DNA of 10,795 bases from an uncultured Holophagales bacterium (GTDB taxonomy: Bacteria > Acidobacteriota > Thermoanaerobaculia > UBA5066). Under the pieces are notes generated by a model. The model saw only the letters and a program-made list of their open reading frames with translations, had not been told where the DNA came from and made no database searches. Shown piece by piece: positions 1 to 10,710 of this stretch. The stretch lies in NCBI GenBank assembly GCA_937864895.1, contig CALMDF010000155.1, positions 1-10,795 of the forward strand, given 5' to 3'. The position numbers and the translations under genes were made by a program. How positions within the stretch are numbered: the first letter of the stretch is position 1; every line of letters begins with the position of its first letter.

Positions 1-731
1 GCCCCGGCAGGACGCACCCGAGGCAGACGCCGAAGCCGCAGGCCATCTCCGACTCGAGCGCGAAGGAGCCCTCGACGCCGGCGGTCTCGAGGATTCCGGC
101 GAGCGTCCGGAACATCGGCGTCGGGCCGCAGGCGAAGACCCGCCGGTAGCTCGTCCCCGCTTCGAGCGCGGCGGCGAGGATGTCGGTGACGCGGCCCTTT
201 TTCCCGAGGGAGCCGTCGTCCGTCGCGTAGCGGCAGCGGTGGGCGCCGAGGAATCGTTCGAAGTCCGGCCGCTTCAGGACTTCGCTCTCGTTCCTTCCGC
301 CGTAGAAGAGGTCGGCGGGAATCCCCCTCTCGGCGAGGCGGCGCGAGAGGAGGACGAGGGGAGCGAGGCCGATCCCCCCGGCCACGAGCGCGACCCGGTC
401 CGACTGCTTCAGGTCCTCCATCGGGAACGGCACCCCGAGCGGCCCGAGGACCGGGATCGGCGTCCCTTCCGCGAAGCGCCCGAGAGCCTCCGTTCCGACG
501 CCGACGGCCCTCACGACGAGCTCGAAGCCGGGAACGCCGGCCACCGTCGCCACGTCCGCGACGGAGAAGGCGCGGCGGAGGTAGGGCCTCAGGCCGTCGC
601 CGGCCTGGATCATGACGAACTGCCCCGGCTTCGCTGCCGCGGCGATCGAGCCGGCCTGCAGGAAGACGGAGAAATGGGCCGCGTCGTAGCGGACGGTGCG
701 GAGGATGCGGAGAGCTTCGTTGACCACCATG
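1..731 (-). CDS. pyrK: Dihydroorotate dehydrogenase electron-transfer (FAD/2Fe-2S) subunit PyrK, partial at C-terminus
   Basis: The reading frame is open from ATG at 731 down to the window edge, giving 243 residues; the end is missing. PyrK passes electrons from dihydroorotate dehydrogenase (PyrD type B) to NAD in pyrimidine synthesis. Visible motifs in order: an FAD-binding segment LRRAFSV near residues 51-57, GGIGLAPL near 118-125 typical of the nucleotide-binding half, ACGPTPM near 200-206, and a [2Fe-2S] loop CGFGVCLGC at 231-239 with three cysteines. The fourth expected cysteine lies beyond the edge. An in-frame TAA about ten codons upstream leaves ATG 731 as the only reasonable start; no strong Shine-Dalgarno is seen. 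It is divergent from the next gene with 31 bp between starts. pyrD would be expected just beyond the left edge. Other members of the ferredoxin-reductase family are possible, but the cysteine loop and overall order favour PyrK. Confidence 0.88.
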
Positions 732-762: not shown

Positions 763-2457
763 ATGAGCGAGGCCCTCCGGCGCGGCCACCCCGCGCTTCT
801 CGGTGCGATCGCGGGCGTCGCGCTCGGCGACGTCCTCCTGGCCCTGAACCCGCACCTCCTCGCCCCGGCGCCGCTCCTGCGCGTCCTCGCCGGGTGCGCC
901 CTCTTCGGGGCGCTCGCGCTCGCCCCGTTCGGCCTGCTCGTCAAGGAGCCCGGCACTCCGTCCCCGGGCTTCTGGGGGGCCGCCACCCTCCTCCTCCTCC
1001 TCCTCGCCGGCTTCGCCGAGGTCGAGCGACGCACCTACTACACGTTTCTCGGGAACGGCACCCGGCGGCTCCTCGTCGGGGTCGCTCTCGTCGGCGCCGC
1101 CTCGGCGCTCGCGCTCCTCCTTGCCGCCCGCGTACGGCCCAAGGGCCGGAACGCGGCGCTGGTCCTCTTCGGGCCGCTGGCCCTCCTCTCGGCCGTCCCC
1201 CTCCTGGCCCGCCGCGGCCCGGAGCGCGCGGCCCTGGCCCCGGAGCGGGCGATCCCGAGGACGGCGACCCGGAGCCTCCTCGTCATCGGTCTCGAGGGGG
1301 TCTCCTGGGACCTCCTCTCCCGCGCCGTCTCCGAGGGGACGCTCCCCGTCTTCGCCCGACTCCTCGACGAGGGAGCGGGGGGGCCCCTCGGGACGCTCGT
1401 GCCTCACGATCGGGCGGCCCTCTGGACCACGGTGGCGACGGGGAAGCTCCCGAGAAAGCACGGCGTCGTCACCGGGAGGTCGATGGAGACCCCTCTCGGG
1501 GTCCTCCGCCTCCTCCCGCGCCTCCCCGGCTTCACCGGGCCGATCCGGCCCTTCCCGGTCCGGGAGGTCCCCGACGACGAGTCCCCCCGGCGGAGCCTCG
1601 CGTTCTGGGAGATCCTCGCCGCGCGCCGGCACGAGGCCGCCGTCCTCGGCTGGCCCGCGGCGAGCCCGCCGCGCCCGGGTCTCGTCCTCTGGGCGACGGA
1701 GGAGTTCTTCGCCGCCGACGAGGACGACCCCACCGACGGCGACGCGCTCCCGGCCGAGGCCGCGGCGCGGGCGAGGCTCCTGCGCCTCGGCGCGGCGAAC
1801 CTCGACCGGCCCCTCGTCCGTTCGCTCGAGCCCGGAGCGATCCCCGACGAAACGAAACGCCTGGCCGGGTCCGCCGCGGGCGCCGCCCGGGACCTCGGCA
1901 TCGCGGGGGCGACTCTCGCCGCGGTCCCGACGGGTTCCGGAAACGTCTCGGCGCTCGTCCTCTCCGGTCTCGCGGGGCCCGCGCGGGTCTACGGGCCCGC
2001 GGCCGAGCCCCGGCGGTACTTCGGCAGGCCCGAGGGAGACGTCGAGACCCGGGAGAAGGCGCTCCTCGCGTACTACCGGTTCCTCGACGACACGATCGGC
2101 GACCTCCTCGAGCGGGAAGGACGCGACCGGACGATCTGCGTCTTCTCGCCCGTCGGGTTCGGGCCCGCTCCCCTCCTGTCCGGGCTCGTGGACCTCCTCA
2201 GGGGCCGCGCGCCGGCCGCCTCTCCCGCCGCCGGCGCCGACGGGTTCCTCGTCCTGTGGGGATCGGGGATCCGGTCCGACGTGAGGCTCACCTCGGCCGA
2301 GGTCGTCGACCTCGCACCCACGCTCCTCGCCCTGGCCGGCGAGTCGATCGCGCGCGACATGGACGGCCGCGTCCTCGCCGAGGCGTTCGACGAGAGGTTC
2401 GCCCAGGGGACGAGCATCCCGGTCGTCACGACCTTCGAGCCGGACGGGCCGCAGTGA
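763..2457 (+). CDS. Membrane-anchored alkaline phosphatase/type I phosphodiesterase superfamily protein, probably catalytically inactive
   Basis: The protein has 564 residues. The N-terminal third holds about five hydrophobic segments (near 10-28, 38-60, 69-85, 102-122, 131-148). From about 168 comes a domain with the order of the type I phosphodiesterase/nucleotide pyrophosphatase family: VIGLEGVSWD (174-183), WTTVATGKLPRKHGV (221-235), YYRFLDDTIGDLL (437-449), FSPVGFGP (461-468), GADGFLVLWGSGI (491-503) and VVDLAPTLLALAG (514-526). In active relatives these blocks carry GLDG, a Ser/Thr nucleophile, D...H, SDHG and a late His. Here the aligned residues are E178, R217, A404/R408, P463/V464 and A490, so binding of two metal ions looks impossible. 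The fold assignment is firm and inactivity is inferred from hand alignment. The gene is coupled to the following glycosyltransferase by a GTGA overlap. No clear ribosome site precedes ATG 763. The active domain probably faces the periplasm. Confidence 0.82.
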   Translation: MSEALRRGHPALLGAIAGVALGDVLLALNPHLLAPAPLLRVLAGCALFGALALAPFGLLVKEPGTPSPGFWGAATLLLLLLAGFAEVERRTYYTFLGNGTRRLLVGVALVGAASALALLLAARVRPKGRNAALVLFGPLALLSAVPLLARRGPERAALAPERAIPRTATRSLLVIGLEGVSWDLLSRAVSEGTLPVFARLLDEGAGGPLGTLVPHDRAALWTTVATGKLPRKHGVVTGRSMETPLGVLRLLPRLPGFTGPIRPFPVREVPDDESPRRSLAFWEILAARRHEAAVLGWPAASPPRPGLVLWATEEFFAADEDDPTDGDALPAEAAARARLLRLGAANLDRPLVRSLEPGAIPDETKRLAGSAAGAARDLGIAGATLAAVPTGSGNVSALVLSGLAGPARVYGPAAEPRRYFGRPEGDVETREKALLAYYRFLDDTIGDLLEREGRDRTICVFSPVGFGPAPLLSGLVDLLRGRAPAASPAAGADGFLVLWGSGIRSDVRLTSAEVVDLAPTLLALAGESIARDMDGRVLAEAFDERFAQGTSIPVVTTFEPDGPQ

Positions 2458-4286
2458 CGGCCGCCCGCCGCACGGCGGCCGCCGTCCTCCTCCTCCTCGC
2501 CCTCGGGTGCGCCCTGCGCCTCGTGAACTGGCGCGGAGCCCCTCCGGGACCCTGGGTCGACGAGGCGCTCGCCCTCCGCGCGGCCCGGGCCGCCGCGGCG
2601 GGCAGCGCGCCCCTCGTCGGGACCTCGCCCCTCCAGCCGCCCGACGCCGGGTTCGTGAACTCCTGGCTCACGAACCCCTCGCTCCTCGCCCTGTCCGCGA
2701 TCGACCGGGCCGCCGGCGGCGGAATCGCCTCCGTCAGGGCCATGTCGATCCTTCCCGCCCTCGTCCTCCTCTTCGCCCTCGTGGCGCTCGCGGCCGAGGC
2801 GACGGACCGCCGTCCCTTTCCGCTCCTCGTCGCGAGCCTCCTCGGCGCCTCGTCGTCCTGGCTCCTCGTCACGGGCCGCTGGGGATGGAACGCCGTCGCC
2901 ACCTCCGCGGTCGCGACCCTCGCCGCCTGGCTCGCCCTGCGTGCCTTGCGGACGGGCTCCGTCCCGTCGGCCGTCCTCTCGGGCGGGCTCCTCGGCGCCT
3001 CCTTCTGGGGCTACGTCGCTGCCTGGGCGCTCCTCCCGCTCCCTCCGCTCGTCCTCGGCGCCGCCCTCCTCGCGCGCGACGGGAGCGCGGGCGCCCGGCT
3101 CCGCGTCCGGGTCGCGGCAGCGGGGCTCGCCGCCTTCCTCCTCGTCCTCGCACCCCTCGCCCTCCACTATGCGGCCCACCCCCAGCGCGCCTTCGCGAGG
3201 ACGAGCGAGCTCTCCGCCGCGCGCGAGGGGGCCGGTGGCGTCCTCCCCGCCCTCGGCCGGAACGCGGCCGCCTACGCGAGGCTCTTCGCGGTCGGGGGCG
3301 ACCCGAACGAAAGGCACGGTGACCCGTCCCGGCCGCCCCTCCCGGTCGCGGTCACGGGCCTCGCGCTCCTCGCGGCCGCGGACGGCTTTCGCCGTCCCGG
3401 GGCCGCTCGCCTGCTCGCGGCCGCCGCGGGGCTCTACCTCGGAGCCGCCCTCCTCGCCGTGGAAGGGTCCGCGAACGCCTACCGCGCCGTCCATGCCGCG
3501 CCGTTCCTCGTCGTCCTCGCCGCGCTCGGCGCCGAGCGGCTCGCCGGGCTCCCCGGCGCGGCGCGCCGCACCCTCGCGACCGCGACCCTCTCCGTCGTCC
3601 TCCTCGCCTCGTCGGCGCTCGACGCCGCGGGCTTCCTCCGGTGGCTCTCGTCTCCCCGTCTCTACGGCGCCTTCGGCGGGCCCGAACGGGACCTCGCCGA
3701 CGCCGTCGCCGCCGAGCTCGCGGCCGGGGGGCCGGCGGATGTTCTCCTCGGGCCCGGGGCGGCGCGGAACACCTTCGTCGTCGACGCCCTCCTCCAGGAC
3801 CCGCGGAGCCCGGCGCCCGCGATCCGGCAGGGCCCCGGTCCGGCGGCCCTGCGCTGGGTCCCCTCGCGCGACGTCCTCTTCGCGGACGAGACGACGGCGG
3901 AGGCGGTCGCCGCCGCCCGCGAGCTCGGCGCGTCGGCGGTCGCCGCCGGTGGCGCGCTCGCCGGCCGTCCCGGCTGGAGCCTCTGGCGCGTCCCCGGGGC
4001 GCAGGCGGCGGCCGCGGGGAGGGCCGTTCTCGACCGCTTCCCGCTCGTCCCCGCCCGCGCGAACGGGAACTTCGAGGTTTCCGAGGAAGGGCTCTTCACG
4101 TTCGCGAGCCGGGGCGGCCTCGAGGCGACTCTCGACGGTGGCGTCGTCTTCGACGCGTCCCGCCCGGCCGGCGCGCTGACGGCGCGCCTTTCGCCGGGGC
4201 GCCACGAGCTCTCGGTCCGCCGCCTCGCGCCGGGGGCGTCCCTTCGCGTCACCGGGCCGGACGGGTTCGTCCTCCCGGCCCCCTGA
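2454..4286 (+). CDS. GT-C fold membrane glycosyltransferase (GT39/ArnT-like) with C-terminal beta domain
   Basis: GTG 2454 gives 610 residues and overlaps the previous stop by four bases (GTGA), so translation is probably coupled; the frame is open further upstream but that part is only a shadow of the preceding gene. TM1 (about 7-23) is followed by PPGPWVDEA (30-38), whose Asp-Glu pair matches the first-loop catalytic motif of polyprenyl-phosphate-sugar-dependent GT-C enzymes. SVRAMSILPA (93-102) matches the conserved Arg-containing turn before the next helix. About ten hydrophobic helices follow up to residue 392. The remaining 220 residues are soluble; 536-600 is beta-rich (GNFEVSEEGLFTF, LDGGVVFD, LSPGRHELSVRRL) and resembles the second half of a PA14-like sugar-binding fold. 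The likely role is transfer of a sugar from a lipid carrier to an envelope glycan, lipid or protein; the substrate cannot be read from sequence. Confidence 0.8.
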   Translation: MTAARRTAAAVLLLLALGCALRLVNWRGAPPGPWVDEALALRAARAAAAGSAPLVGTSPLQPPDAGFVNSWLTNPSLLALSAIDRAAGGGIASVRAMSILPALVLLFALVALAAEATDRRPFPLLVASLLGASSSWLLVTGRWGWNAVATSAVATLAAWLALRALRTGSVPSAVLSGGLLGASFWGYVAAWALLPLPPLVLGAALLARDGSAGARLRVRVAAAGLAAFLLVLAPLALHYAAHPQRAFARTSELSAAREGAGGVLPALGRNAAAYARLFAVGGDPNERHGDPSRPPLPVAVTGLALLAAADGFRRPGAARLLAAAAGLYLGAALLAVEGSANAYRAVHAAPFLVVLAALGAERLAGLPGAARRTLATATLSVVLLASSALDAAGFLRWLSSPRLYGAFGGPERDLADAVAAELAAGGPADVLLGPGAARNTFVVDALLQDPRSPAPAIRQGPGPAALRWVPSRDVLFADETTAEAVAAARELGASAVAAGGALAGRPGWSLWRVPGAQAAAAGRAVLDRFPLVPARANGNFEVSEEGLFTFASRGGLEATLDGGVVFDASRPAGALTARLSPGRHELSVRRLAPGASLRVTGPDGFVLPAP

Positions 4287-5217: not shown

Positions 5218-7353
5218 TCAGTACGCGAGGAGGTCCCTGAGCGCGGCTTCGATGTCCGCGCTCTGCGGGAGCGTCGCGTCCTCCAGCTGCGGCGCGTAGC
5301 CGCAGAAGACGTCCTTCGCCCCGAGGCGCCGCACCGGCGCGTCGAGCTGCTCGAAGAGCTCGTCGGCCGCCCGCGCGGCCACCTCCGCCCCGAAGCCGTG
5401 CGCCTGCCAGTCCTCGTGGACGACGAGGAGGCGGTTCGTCCGCTTCACGCTCTCGGCGATCGCGTCGAAGTCGTACGGGGCAAGCGTCCGAAGGTCGATC
5501 ACCTCGACCTCCTTCCCCGAGTCCTCGGCGATCTTCCGAGCCGCCACGAGGCTCCGGAAGACCGTCGCGCCGTACGTCACGAGCGTCGCGTCCTTCCCCG
5601 GCCGGACGGTCTTCGCCTTGCCGAAGGGCACCATGAAGTCGGGCCCGGGGTACTGGCCCTTGTTGTGGGTCTGGCGGTAGAGGTGCTTGTGCTCGAGGAA
5701 GAGGACCGGGTCGTCGCACCGGATCGCGGTGCGCAGGAGTCCGTTCGCGTCGAGGGCATTCGACGGGAAGGCGACGCGCAGTCCGGGGATGTGCGCGAAC
5801 GCGACCTCGCCCGACTGCGAGTGGTACGGGCCGCCCCCGGTCAGGTAGCCGCCGATGGCGACGCGGACGACGACGGGGCACTTCCACGTGCCGCCGGAGC
5901 GCCAGCGCACGGTGGCCAGCTCGTCGCGCAGCTGCTGCATGGCGGGCCAGATGTAGTCGAAGAACTGGATCTCGACGACGGGCTTGAGCCCGCGCGCGGC
6001 CCAGCCGAGAGCCGTCCCGACGATCGTCGCCTCGGCGAGCGGCGAGTTGAAGACCCGGTCGCCGCCGAAGGCCTTCTGCAGGCCCGCGGTCACCTTGAAG
6101 ACCCCGCCCTTCCCCTTGCACTCGGCGAGGACCTCGGCGCGGGTGGCGTCGGCCACGTCCTCGCCGAAGACGACGATGCGCCCGTCGCGCCGCATCTCGT
6201 CCTTCAGGGCGGCGTTGATGAGGTCGACCATGGTCGTCGGGCTGCCGGAGAACGCCGGGGACGCCTCGGTGTCGAAGGCCGGCGACGTCGGGTCGACGTC
6301 GGGGGAGGTGACGTTCGAGAGGAGCTCGCCGGCTCCGGGTTGCGGGCTCGCGACGGCCTCGTCCGCCGCGGCACTCACCTCGGCGTCGACCTCGGCCTTC
6401 AGCGTCGCGAGCGCGGCGGCGTCGAGGATCCCGTGCTCGAGGAGGAGAGCCTCCATCCGGACGACGGGGTCGAGCCCGGCGTCCTTCTTCCGCTCGTCTT
6501 CCGTGCGGTAGAGCCGGTCGTCGTCGGAGAGGGAGTGCGAGTAGGGGCGGATGACGTGGGCGTGGACGAGGGCCGGCCCCTTGCGCTCGCGGCAGTAGGC
6601 GAAGGCCCACTGCAGCGCGTCGTAGGAGGCGAGGAAGTCGCAGCCGTCCGTCTCGGCCAGGAAGAGCCCGGGGAAGCCGCGGACGACCTTCGAGATCGAC
6701 CCGCCCGGCGTGTTCACCTCGACCGGGGTCGAGATGGCGAGCTTGTTGTCCTCGACGAGGAAGAGGACCGGAAGCTTGCGCGTGCAGGCGACGTTCAGCG
6801 CCTCCCAGAACTCGCCCTCGGAAGTGGCGCCGTCGCCGATCGTCACGACCGAGACCTCGTCCCGGGCGAAGCCGGAGGTGGCCGCGAGGAAGCCCTTCGA
6901 GGCGGGGCGGGAGAGATAGAGGCCCGCCTCGGCAACGCCGACGCCCGGGAGGCACTCGGAACCCGTGGGGGAGGACGTCGTGAAGACGTTGAGGCGCCTC
7001 GAGCCCCAGTGCGACGGCATCTGCCGGCCGGCGGAGGCCTCCGAGGCCTTCGCGCCGACGGCGGTGAGGAACATCTCGAGGGGCGTCACGCCCAGGCCGA
7101 GGCAGAGCGCGCGGTCCCGGTAGTAGGGGAAGAGCCAGTCGGACCCCGGGTTCATCAGCAGGGCGGCGGCGGTCTGGACGGCCTCGTGCCCGGCGCCGCT
7201 GATCTGGAAGAAGATCCGGTTCTGCCGCTTGAGCTGGATCTCCTTGTCGTCGATCCGCCGGGACGTGTAGGCGATCCGGAACGCCCGGACGAGGTCGTCG
7301 GGCGACAGGCCGTGGAACGGCATCGGGGAAGCGGGAGTGTCTTCGGTCGCCAT
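5218..7353 (-). CDS. 2-oxoacid dehydrogenase E1 component, fused alpha and beta subunits (thiamine diphosphate dependent)
   Basis: This enzyme decarboxylates a 2-oxoacid and passes the acyl group to a lipoylated E2. Residues 1 to about 335 are the alpha half: GAGHEA (54-59), [15 protein letters not shown] (129-143), the ThDP motif from GDG (173-175) to N203, and a loop with [13 protein letters not shown] (272-284). A linker rich in Ala/Ser/Pro (about 328-370) leads to the beta half: FGEDVA (396-401) with the catalytic-type Glu, [17 protein letters not shown] (434-450), [11 protein letters not shown] (506-516) with an active-site-type His, and a transketolase C-terminal domain from about 585. 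The fusion architecture is known for branched-chain-type E1 proteins in several phyla, so 2-oxoisovalerate is a reasonable substrate guess. ATG 7353 was chosen over ATG 7359 because GAGG sits 6 nt before the former but abuts the latter. No E2 or E3 gene is in view. Confidence 0.9.
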
Positions 7354-7359
7354 CGGCAT

Positions 7360-10044: not shown

Positions 10045-10710
10045 ATGAGTGAAAAGAAAAACTGGGGCTCGACCGTCCTCGGCTGGTTCGTCGTGAAGGA
10101 GGGAGGGGAGGACCCTTCCGCCCTCGTCGAGCCGGACGCCTTCCCGCGAGAGGGGGACCCGGCGGCGTCCGCGCCGCCCGAGCCCCCGCCGGTCGCCTTC
10201 GTCACGGAGCCGCCGAAGGCCGTCGGGGGGCAGGTCGATTTCGACGGCGTCCTCGACGCCGCGGGGGTGGACGCCTCCGAGCGGGACCTCTTCGCCAAGG
10301 CCCAGACGCTCCTCGGGAGCCTCCCGCCGGGGACCGACCCGGCCGTCAGGAAGCAGATCGTCGAGGCGTCGCTCAAGGCGTTCGGCGTTCCGGTCGACAA
10401 GATCATCGAGGCGGGGGTCGAGTCGATCCAGGCGCTCGAGGCCTACCTGAGGAAGACGGCGGCCGACACCGCGACGACGGCGCGCGACGTCCAGGCCCTC
10501 GTCGCGGACTACGAGCAGAAGATCGCCGAGGTGCGGCAGATCCTCGACCGGAAACTGCAGGAGCAGGCCGCCGTACAGACGAGCTGTAACTCGAAGAAGC
10601 TCGAGGTCCAGAGGGTCCTCGAGTTCTTCGGGCAGGAGGAGGTGGCGCGGGTGGTCAAGGAATCGCCGAAGCTCATCGAGCCGACGCCCGCGCCCGAGAG
10701 GAAGGACTGA
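10045..10710 (+). CDS. Unrecognised helical/coiled-coil protein, possible PspA partner
   Basis: The protein has 221 residues and matches no family I recognise. Visible parts: a short amphipathic N-terminus with WGSTVLGWFVVKEG (7-20), a Pro/Ala/Glu-rich flexible stretch (about 28-60), a helical section (64-128) including DVLDA-like and VRKQIVEASLKAFGV segments, a likely coiled coil from about 130 to 195 with charged heptad-like spacing (YEQKIAEVRQILDRKLQEQ), one cysteine at 181, and a short Pro-rich acidic tail. There is no signal peptide or transmembrane helix, so it is cytoplasmic, perhaps membrane-associated through its N-terminus. The PspA-like gene starts three bases after its stop, so they form one transcript and may act together. 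Codon use resembles neighbours except for an A-rich start (AGTGAAAAGAAAAAC), which may help initiation without a Shine-Dalgarno. Confidence 0.8.
   Translation: MSEKKNWGSTVLGWFVVKEGGEDPSALVEPDAFPREGDPAASAPPEPPPVAFVTEPPKAVGGQVDFDGVLDAAGVDASERDLFAKAQTLLGSLPPGTDPAVRKQIVEASLKAFGVPVDKIIEAGVESIQALEAYLRKTAADTATTARDVQALVADYEQKIAEVRQILDRKLQEQAAVQTSCNSKKLEVQRVLEFFGQEEVARVVKESPKLIEPTPAPERKD
10702..10706 (+). promoter_or_regulatory. Ribosome binding site of the PspA-like gene
   Basis: AAGGA within GAGAGGAAGGA lies 7 nt before ATG 10714 and inside the last codons of the upstream gene. It is the clearest Shine-Dalgarno in the window, suggesting the PspA-like protein is made in larger amounts than its upstream partner. 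Confidence 0.6.

Follow-up and report, generated by a model that had tools for sequence, protein, structure and literature searches.

A putative membrane pseudo-phosphodiesterase with a replaced active site, conserved in a family of Acidobacteriota

The window, which is the whole 10,795-base contig analysed here (its source assembly is 3.1 Mb in size and 75% complete), encodes a predicted membrane protein whose domain of the nucleotide pyrophosphatase/phosphodiesterase (NPP) type has lost the nucleophile and all six metal ligands of the two-metal enzymes, and which is nevertheless maintained throughout the close family (Table 1). As far as alignments can tell, its reading as a pseudoenzyme is well supported. 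The explanation that we prefer, giving it a little less than an even chance, is that the protein is a pseudoenzyme retained to bind or sense a phospho-ligand of the cell envelope or to act as an adaptor for it, and that in this family it probably works with the ArnT-fold glycosyltransferase encoded by the overlapping gene.

Table 1. Positions of the pseudo-phosphodiesterase gene, its replaced sites and its neighbours in the window
Feature	Positions	Strand	Basis or remark
pyrK (dihydroorotate dehydrogenase electron-transfer subunit), truncated at the end of the contig	2-730	-	Divergent neighbour
Pseudo-phosphodiesterase gene	763-2457	+	564 aa; five TM helices and NPP/AP-fold domain
Five predicted membrane helices, residues 8-148	784-1206	+	AlphaFold2 helices and hydropathy peaks
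AP/NPP-fold domain, residues 172-530 (bounds of the sequence-only reading)	1276-2352	+	Pfam and Foldseek
E178, replaces metal-ligand Asp	1294-1296	+	MAFFT and hhalign
D216-R217; R217 replaces the Ser/Thr nucleophile	1408-1413	+	MAFFT family rows
A404...R408, replace the D...H metal-ligand pair	1972-1986	+	MAFFT and hhalign
P463-V464, replace D-H of S-D-H-G	2149-2154	+	MAFFT and hhalign
A490, replaces the late metal-ligand His	2230-2232	+	MAFFT and hhalign
GT-C glycosyltransferase-like gene (ArnT fold)	2454-4286	+	Start codon overlaps the pseudoenzyme stop by 4 nt

Architecture and replaced active site

The start at 763 is backed by residues S2 and H9, both invariant across the 11 family rows of alignment A1. 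The AlphaFold2 model, for which a 20-sequence alignment was the input (pLDDT 84.6, pTM 0.87), predicts the five N-terminal membrane helices that the sequence-only reading had proposed, at residues 8-28, 35-52, 68-91, 98-124 and 129-148, followed by an alpha/beta domain; hydropathy peaks begin at residues 10, 42, 69, 103 and 131, with an extra stretch at 458 within the alkaline phosphatase (AP) domain. The predicted topology would place this domain outside the cytoplasm, facing the periplasm.

The phosphodiesterase/AP fold had been recognized from the sequence, and both kinds of search bear it out. The sole Pfam match, PF01663, spans residues 172-470 and scores 56.8 bits (cut-off 23, E 3.7e-15). 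In the PDB, Foldseek ranks the Xanthomonas NPP first for the model (7mw8; E 2.5e-9, TM-score by target 0.46, rmsd 9.4) and places more NPP, phosphonate monoester hydrolase and ENPP entries after it; as modelled, the fold class is clear and the overall superposition loose. By sequence score and by fold the protein is thus a member of PF01663. A single-sequence search of the PDB with the 564-residue protein returned just two chance matches (E 0.12 and 0.13) and a profile was required: that of alignment A1 gave 13 matches at E 0.01, to entries named as NPPs, phosphonoacetate hydrolase and alkaline phosphatase/PhoK. The structural motifs TGKLPRKHG, LDDTIGDLL and DLAPTLLALAG, said earlier to be kept, are all present.

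The protein therefore shares its domain fold and sequence blocks with NPP (type I phosphodiesterase/nucleotide pyrophosphatase; Xac NPP, PDB 2gsn/7mw8; PF01663); unlike NPP, it has all seven nucleophile and metal-ligand residues replaced and carries five N-terminal membrane helices in addition. For the MAFFT alignment of the AP domain, 70 of 80 loci from named genomes were combined with five paralogues from the window's own genome, the other 10 loci being excluded because their match spans two frames. In this alignment the canonical D-S-D-H-D-H-H faces E-R-A-R-P-V-A in the window's protein (0/7), and 27 of the 70 loci carry all seven canonical residues at exactly these columns. Taken as a two-metal enzyme with a Ser/Thr nucleophile and D, D-H, D-H and H ligands, an NPP is consequently not what the window's protein is. 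When hhalign compared the profile of the family (A1) with one built from 16 intact relatives (A3), the residues paired in the same way (probability 100, E 6.1e-53). The seven letters that the sequence-only reading had named, E178, R217, A404, R408, P463, V464 and A490, thus stand at the numbers it gave, opposite the canonical residues. A misplaced alignment was ruled out for the family, since MAFFT with mixed relatives and hhalign with separate profiles pair the same residues. In the subgroup L081/L092, an Asn (L081) or Ser (L092) lies one residue before the nucleophile column, and there the alignment could be off by one.

Among the 27 intact loci, one is labelled acidobacterial (L091, Bryobacteraceae), one is unplaced (L112) and the rest are named for other phyla. 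Three of the five same-genome paralogues keep six of the seven residues and two, partly covered, keep four; the PF01663 paralogue at L003 reads D-T-D-H-D-H at the six columns covered. Two further arrangements were seen in passing. The locus L074 (Candidatus Eisenbacteria) has two consecutive PF01663 genes, at 7-1347 and 1393-2628 (100.5 and 62.7 bits), and in L112 a second PF01663 open reading frame follows the match, as is probably also the case in L058, L062, L077 and other loci with two-frame matches.

Conservation, selection and graded loss of the site

An orthologue was found in 13 of 13 other genomes of the same family searched, with a best E of 2e-74 or lower (the copies in G003 and G010 are cut by contig ends and that in G004 was matched in two pieces), and identity is 47-74%. 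The named same-family relatives are metagenome-assembled genomes of Acidobacteriota, three of them labelled Thermoanaerobaculia. Residues were counted over the window and 13 family loci, two of them partial, L050 and L051 covering five columns. Among the sequences that reach the position, column 178 is E in 11/12 and D in one (L041), R217 is present in 12/12 and D216 in 11/12 (Ser in L049); P463 occurs in 14/14, position 464 is V or A in 14/14, and columns 404, 408 and 490 hold no D, no H and no H, respectively (0/14 each). D178 in L041 is the sole canonical residue at the seven columns in the whole family and the lone exception to the conservation of the substitutions within the clade; at the level of sequence, these columns give no sign of other Asp, His or Ser residues taking over the metal site. 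K228 and H233 are invariant across the 20 rows of alignment A1.

NG86 gave dN/dS values of 0.09-0.24 for eight close pairs among the relatives, whose identity is 80.7-94.2% and three of which are partial; the window's copy is in none of them. In the five full-length pairs the values were 0.11-0.19 for the AP domain and 0.30-0.37 for the membrane part. Pairs that include the window's copy gave 0.31 and 0.32 (AP domain 0.25-0.27, membrane part 0.46-0.50), and the window/L012 pair 0.51 (AP domain 0.42, membrane part 0.80); either the gene is under weaker constraint across this distance or dS comes out too low. NG86 ignores base composition, which may lower dS here. Compared with their neighbours, the pseudo-phosphodiesterase genes of L039/L040 have a dN/dS of 0.16 (pyrK 0.10, glycosyltransferase 0.28) and those of window/L039 one of 0.31 (pyrK 0.05, pyruvate dehydrogenase-type E1 0.19, alpha/beta hydrolase 0.32, glycosyltransferase 0.41); the gene is thus under less constraint than housekeeping genes but under more than the glycosyltransferase gene beside it. 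The view that the protein is maintained and not decaying is borne out by these values and by its presence across the family. Close homologues with an intact site, which would have exposed a decaying copy, did not appear: the intact copies found are distant, with at most 33% identity to the query, mostly over the AP domain alone.

Across the wider set, the number of canonical residues kept is seven in the intact relatives (27 loci; six in L109), four in L070 and L142, three (D178, D404 and H408 each) in L096, L110, L115, L117, L118, L143, L146 and L147, zero to two in 21 distant acidobacterial loci and zero or one in the close family. R217 is found in 13 of the 21 distant acidobacterial rows and is missing from 8, His is kept at 464 in 5 of the 21 and at 490 in one, and D216 occurs in none of the nine distant rows of alignment A1. 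A profile of the membrane domain matched 11/11 family loci that reach it and 21/21 distant loci at E 1e-26 or lower, some of these rows having also built the profile; it was weak in 9 of the 10 loci with three or four residues (E 2e-14 to 8e-7; L146 not found) and marginal in the intact Calditrichaeota protein L090 (E 0.02). Hydrophobic stretches occur near the N-termini of the intact relatives L084, L090 and L109, but the tblastn synteny search found none of the searched neighbour genes beside them; hence none of the intact copies found can be called an orthologue, and an intact starting state is deduced from the enzymes of the superfamily. In a 59-row tree computed with the seven columns removed, rows group by site state; this quick tree has no root and 17 of its 56 inner branches are open, and it serves only to show that states follow groups. 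In 92 of 297 genomes drawn from the phylum, the A1 profile has a match with E no higher than 1e-25; since many of the listed matches span the AP domain alone, this figure is an upper limit for genomes with the orthologue.

A different replaced site, E-P-N-A-P-H-L/F, accompanies hydrophobic N-terminal stretches in L094 (Aminicenantes) and L101 (Clostridiales). Since these two loci carry another replaced site, site loss may have occurred more than once.

Neighbouring genes in the family and beyond

Synteny counts come from tblastn with chosen proteins; conservation-based gene calling gave some wrong-strand open reading frames (for example c27, opposite the glycosyltransferase). Besides the window, 10 of the 12 other family loci long enough to show it have the 4-nt overlap with the GT-C gene, and tblastn recovers the gene in 11 of 12 such loci (weakly placed in L051, absent at L046). 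It was not found by tblastn beside distant, intermediate or other-phylum loci. Pfam names no family for the window's GT-C-like protein, even at E 1; an NfeD identity was set aside, as it came from one weak match in one of five homologues. The model of this downstream protein (pLDDT 86.9) has undecaprenyl phosphate-bound ArnT (5f15) as its best Foldseek match (E 8.6e-7), with oligosaccharyltransferases next. It thus resembles this GT-C aminoarabinose transferase in predicted fold, and differs from it in sharing 15% identity, in the loose superposition (rmsd 10.8) and in having no Pfam match. GT-C enzymes are expected to carry an acidic residue in the first periplasmic loop. In the first loop of the downstream protein D36 is invariant and E37 is present in at least 90% of 11 rows, so that both the fold and the acidic residue of the GT-C class are found there.

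Eleven family loci extend 3 kb or more upstream, and 10 of them carry divergent pyrF-pyrD-pyrK genes there (L049 lacks them in 3.4 kb). Of the 18 distant loci that reach 2 kb or more upstream, 10 have pyrF and/or pyrD, with pyrK in L082 only; of the five intermediate loci that reach 5 kb or more (L070, L096, L110, L115 and L117), three have pyrD and pyrK. For the loci having them, these shared pyr genes support orthology with proteins that are only about 30% identical. Downstream, the arrangement changes from group to group. Of the 19 distant loci whose downstream sequence extends for 1 kb or more, 16 have bactofilin and ParB genes directly after the match and on the other strand, the exceptions being L060, L061 and L081; in the close family, tblastn found neither gene within 4 kb downstream. 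In the intermediate group, PyrR-, PyrB- and PyrC-like genes follow on the same strand in 6/6 loci (L070, L096, L110, L115, L117 and L118), where the membrane AP-fold gene may head a pyrimidine operon. Pfam, run on one representative each, gave phosphoribosyltransferase, carbamoyltransferase, amidohydrolase/dihydroorotase-like, bactofilin, ParB, OMP decarboxylase and DHO dehydrogenase.

The 16 distant loci with bactofilin and ParB, which range from L052 to L087, have a fixed neighbourhood, many with a ParA-like ATPase, GidB and YidC further on, as named by Pfam on one representative each. Elsewhere in the window, positions 5218-7359 on the minus strand encode a 713-aa E1 of the pyruvate dehydrogenase type that unites the alpha and beta parts in a single chain (72-88% identity in seven relatives' loci), and positions 10045-10710 on the plus strand a 221-aa open reading frame with no Pfam match (57-80% identity in four relatives' loci).

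The partnership with the coupled glycosyltransferase suggested by the sequence-only reading is therefore upheld in part: the kept overlap and the ArnT fold of the neighbour speak for it within the family, but one family locus lacks the gene and the wider orthologues have other neighbours. Because neighbours change between groups, service to the glycosyltransferase cannot be the general function of the pseudoenzyme, of which that enzyme would be a lineage-specific client.

A proposed sensor or adaptor at the envelope, and the alternatives

The nearest working precedent is PbgA/YejM (LapC), a ligand sensor in the membrane that has an AP fold. In PMC12444477 it is described as having a five-helix membrane domain and a periplasmic AP-superfamily domain in which the cation ligands of LtaS/EptA are not conserved, and as binding LPS and controlling LpxC turnover as a LapB antiadaptor; the relevance of its reported phosphatase activity is called unclear (PMC12444477). 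PMC7576196 reports Mg-dependent phosphatase activity for YejM, which earlier authors had judged to be no metalloenzyme, and aligns it with the LtaS/EptA branch, with a retained Thr and a reported Mg site. The likeness of our protein, five transmembrane helices followed by an AP-fold domain, appears in the model and in the fold search, the periplasmic side being deduced, and it is one of functional analogy. No YejM chain occurs among the 13 PDB matches of the A1 profile (E 0.01), nor among the best 50 of 335 Foldseek matches at E 0.001; these comparisons assign the family to the NPP branch, away from the branch of YejM, LtaS and EptA. LpxC was found in 14/14 family genomes searched. A LapB zinc-ribbon search matched 13/14, but also Gram-positive controls, and this count was discarded as evidence. 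Among open-licence papers we found none whose title or abstract opening treats this family.

In the explanation that we prefer, the product would be an inner-membrane five-helix protein with a periplasm-facing NPP-type domain devoid of the nucleophile and the six metal ligands, and two-metal binding and phosphodiester hydrolysis would have been lost with them. With an arginine fixed at the nucleophile position, the former pocket might accommodate an envelope ligand that carries phosphate, for instance a lipid- or polyprenyl-linked phosphate, and the protein would serve on the periplasmic side as sensor or adaptor; in the close family it would probably present or gate the lipid-phosphate substrate of the ArnT-fold glycosyltransferase. 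The lack of R217 in 8 of the 21 distant rows, as aligned, counts against this explanation, as do the higher dN/dS values of pairs with the window's copy and the loose Foldseek superpositions. A broader proposal, which we hold doubtful, is that a phylum-wide orthologous five-helix family has been turned stepwise from an NPP-type enzyme into a non-catalytic envelope regulator, a second and independent invention of the YejM principle, with an arginine fixed at the nucleophile site and, in one lineage, overlap with an ArnT-like glycosyltransferase gene.

Other explanations draw on the same neighbourhoods. The bactofilin and ParB genes beside most distant loci, together with the incomplete conservation of R217, would suit an envelope scaffold tied to cell-shape or chromosome-segregation genes, the dead domain being a protein-protein platform and the glycosyltransferase a later, family-specific companion; yet the gene pair is convergent with ours, forms no operon with it, may be only positional and was not found within 4 kb downstream in the family, and we regard this as unlikely. 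Rather less probable again is descent from a nucleotide phosphodiesterase of the pyr locus that now senses a nucleotide or nucleotide-sugar: it would account for the pyrF, pyrD and pyrK genes upstream in the family and partly in distant and intermediate loci, and for the pyrR-pyrB-pyrC-like genes downstream in all six intermediate loci, but pyrFDK lie on the other strand, the prediction puts the AP domain outside the cytoplasm, and synteny alone does not show function.

The protein might also still be an enzyme, with metal-free or one-metal chemistry through residues such as D216, R217, K228 and H233. The near-invariance of the first two in the family, the strict invariance of the last two in alignment A1, the YejM precedent of reported Mg-dependent activity (PMC7576196), the one-residue shift that could hide a nucleophile in L081/L092 and the single His retained at 464 or 490 in a few distant rows are all compatible with this. 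However, residues matching K228 and H233 are invariant in intact enzymes too, and are thus probably structural, the other ligand columns have neither Asp nor His in the family, and D216 is missing from every distant row of A1, which together leave such an activity improbable. Simple decay of a redundant enzyme gene is largely contradicted and scarcely credible: other PF01663 proteins are encoded in the same genome, the copy at L003 with canonical residues at all six covered columns, and pairs with the window's copy reach 0.31-0.51 in dN/dS, but the low values in relatives, the open frames and the gene's presence in every other family genome led us to reject it.

Within one phylum, relatives display intermediate stages of site loss, and several of these stand next to the same pyr genes, which makes the path from enzyme to non-enzyme traceable and open to testing. 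Should envelope-lipid sensing prove true, this would be a second AP fold turned envelope regulator, and one found beyond the proteobacteria, where YejM is studied. A replaced site kept under selection in Acidobacteriota suggests that the protein serves these bacteria as a binder or adaptor and not as an enzyme.
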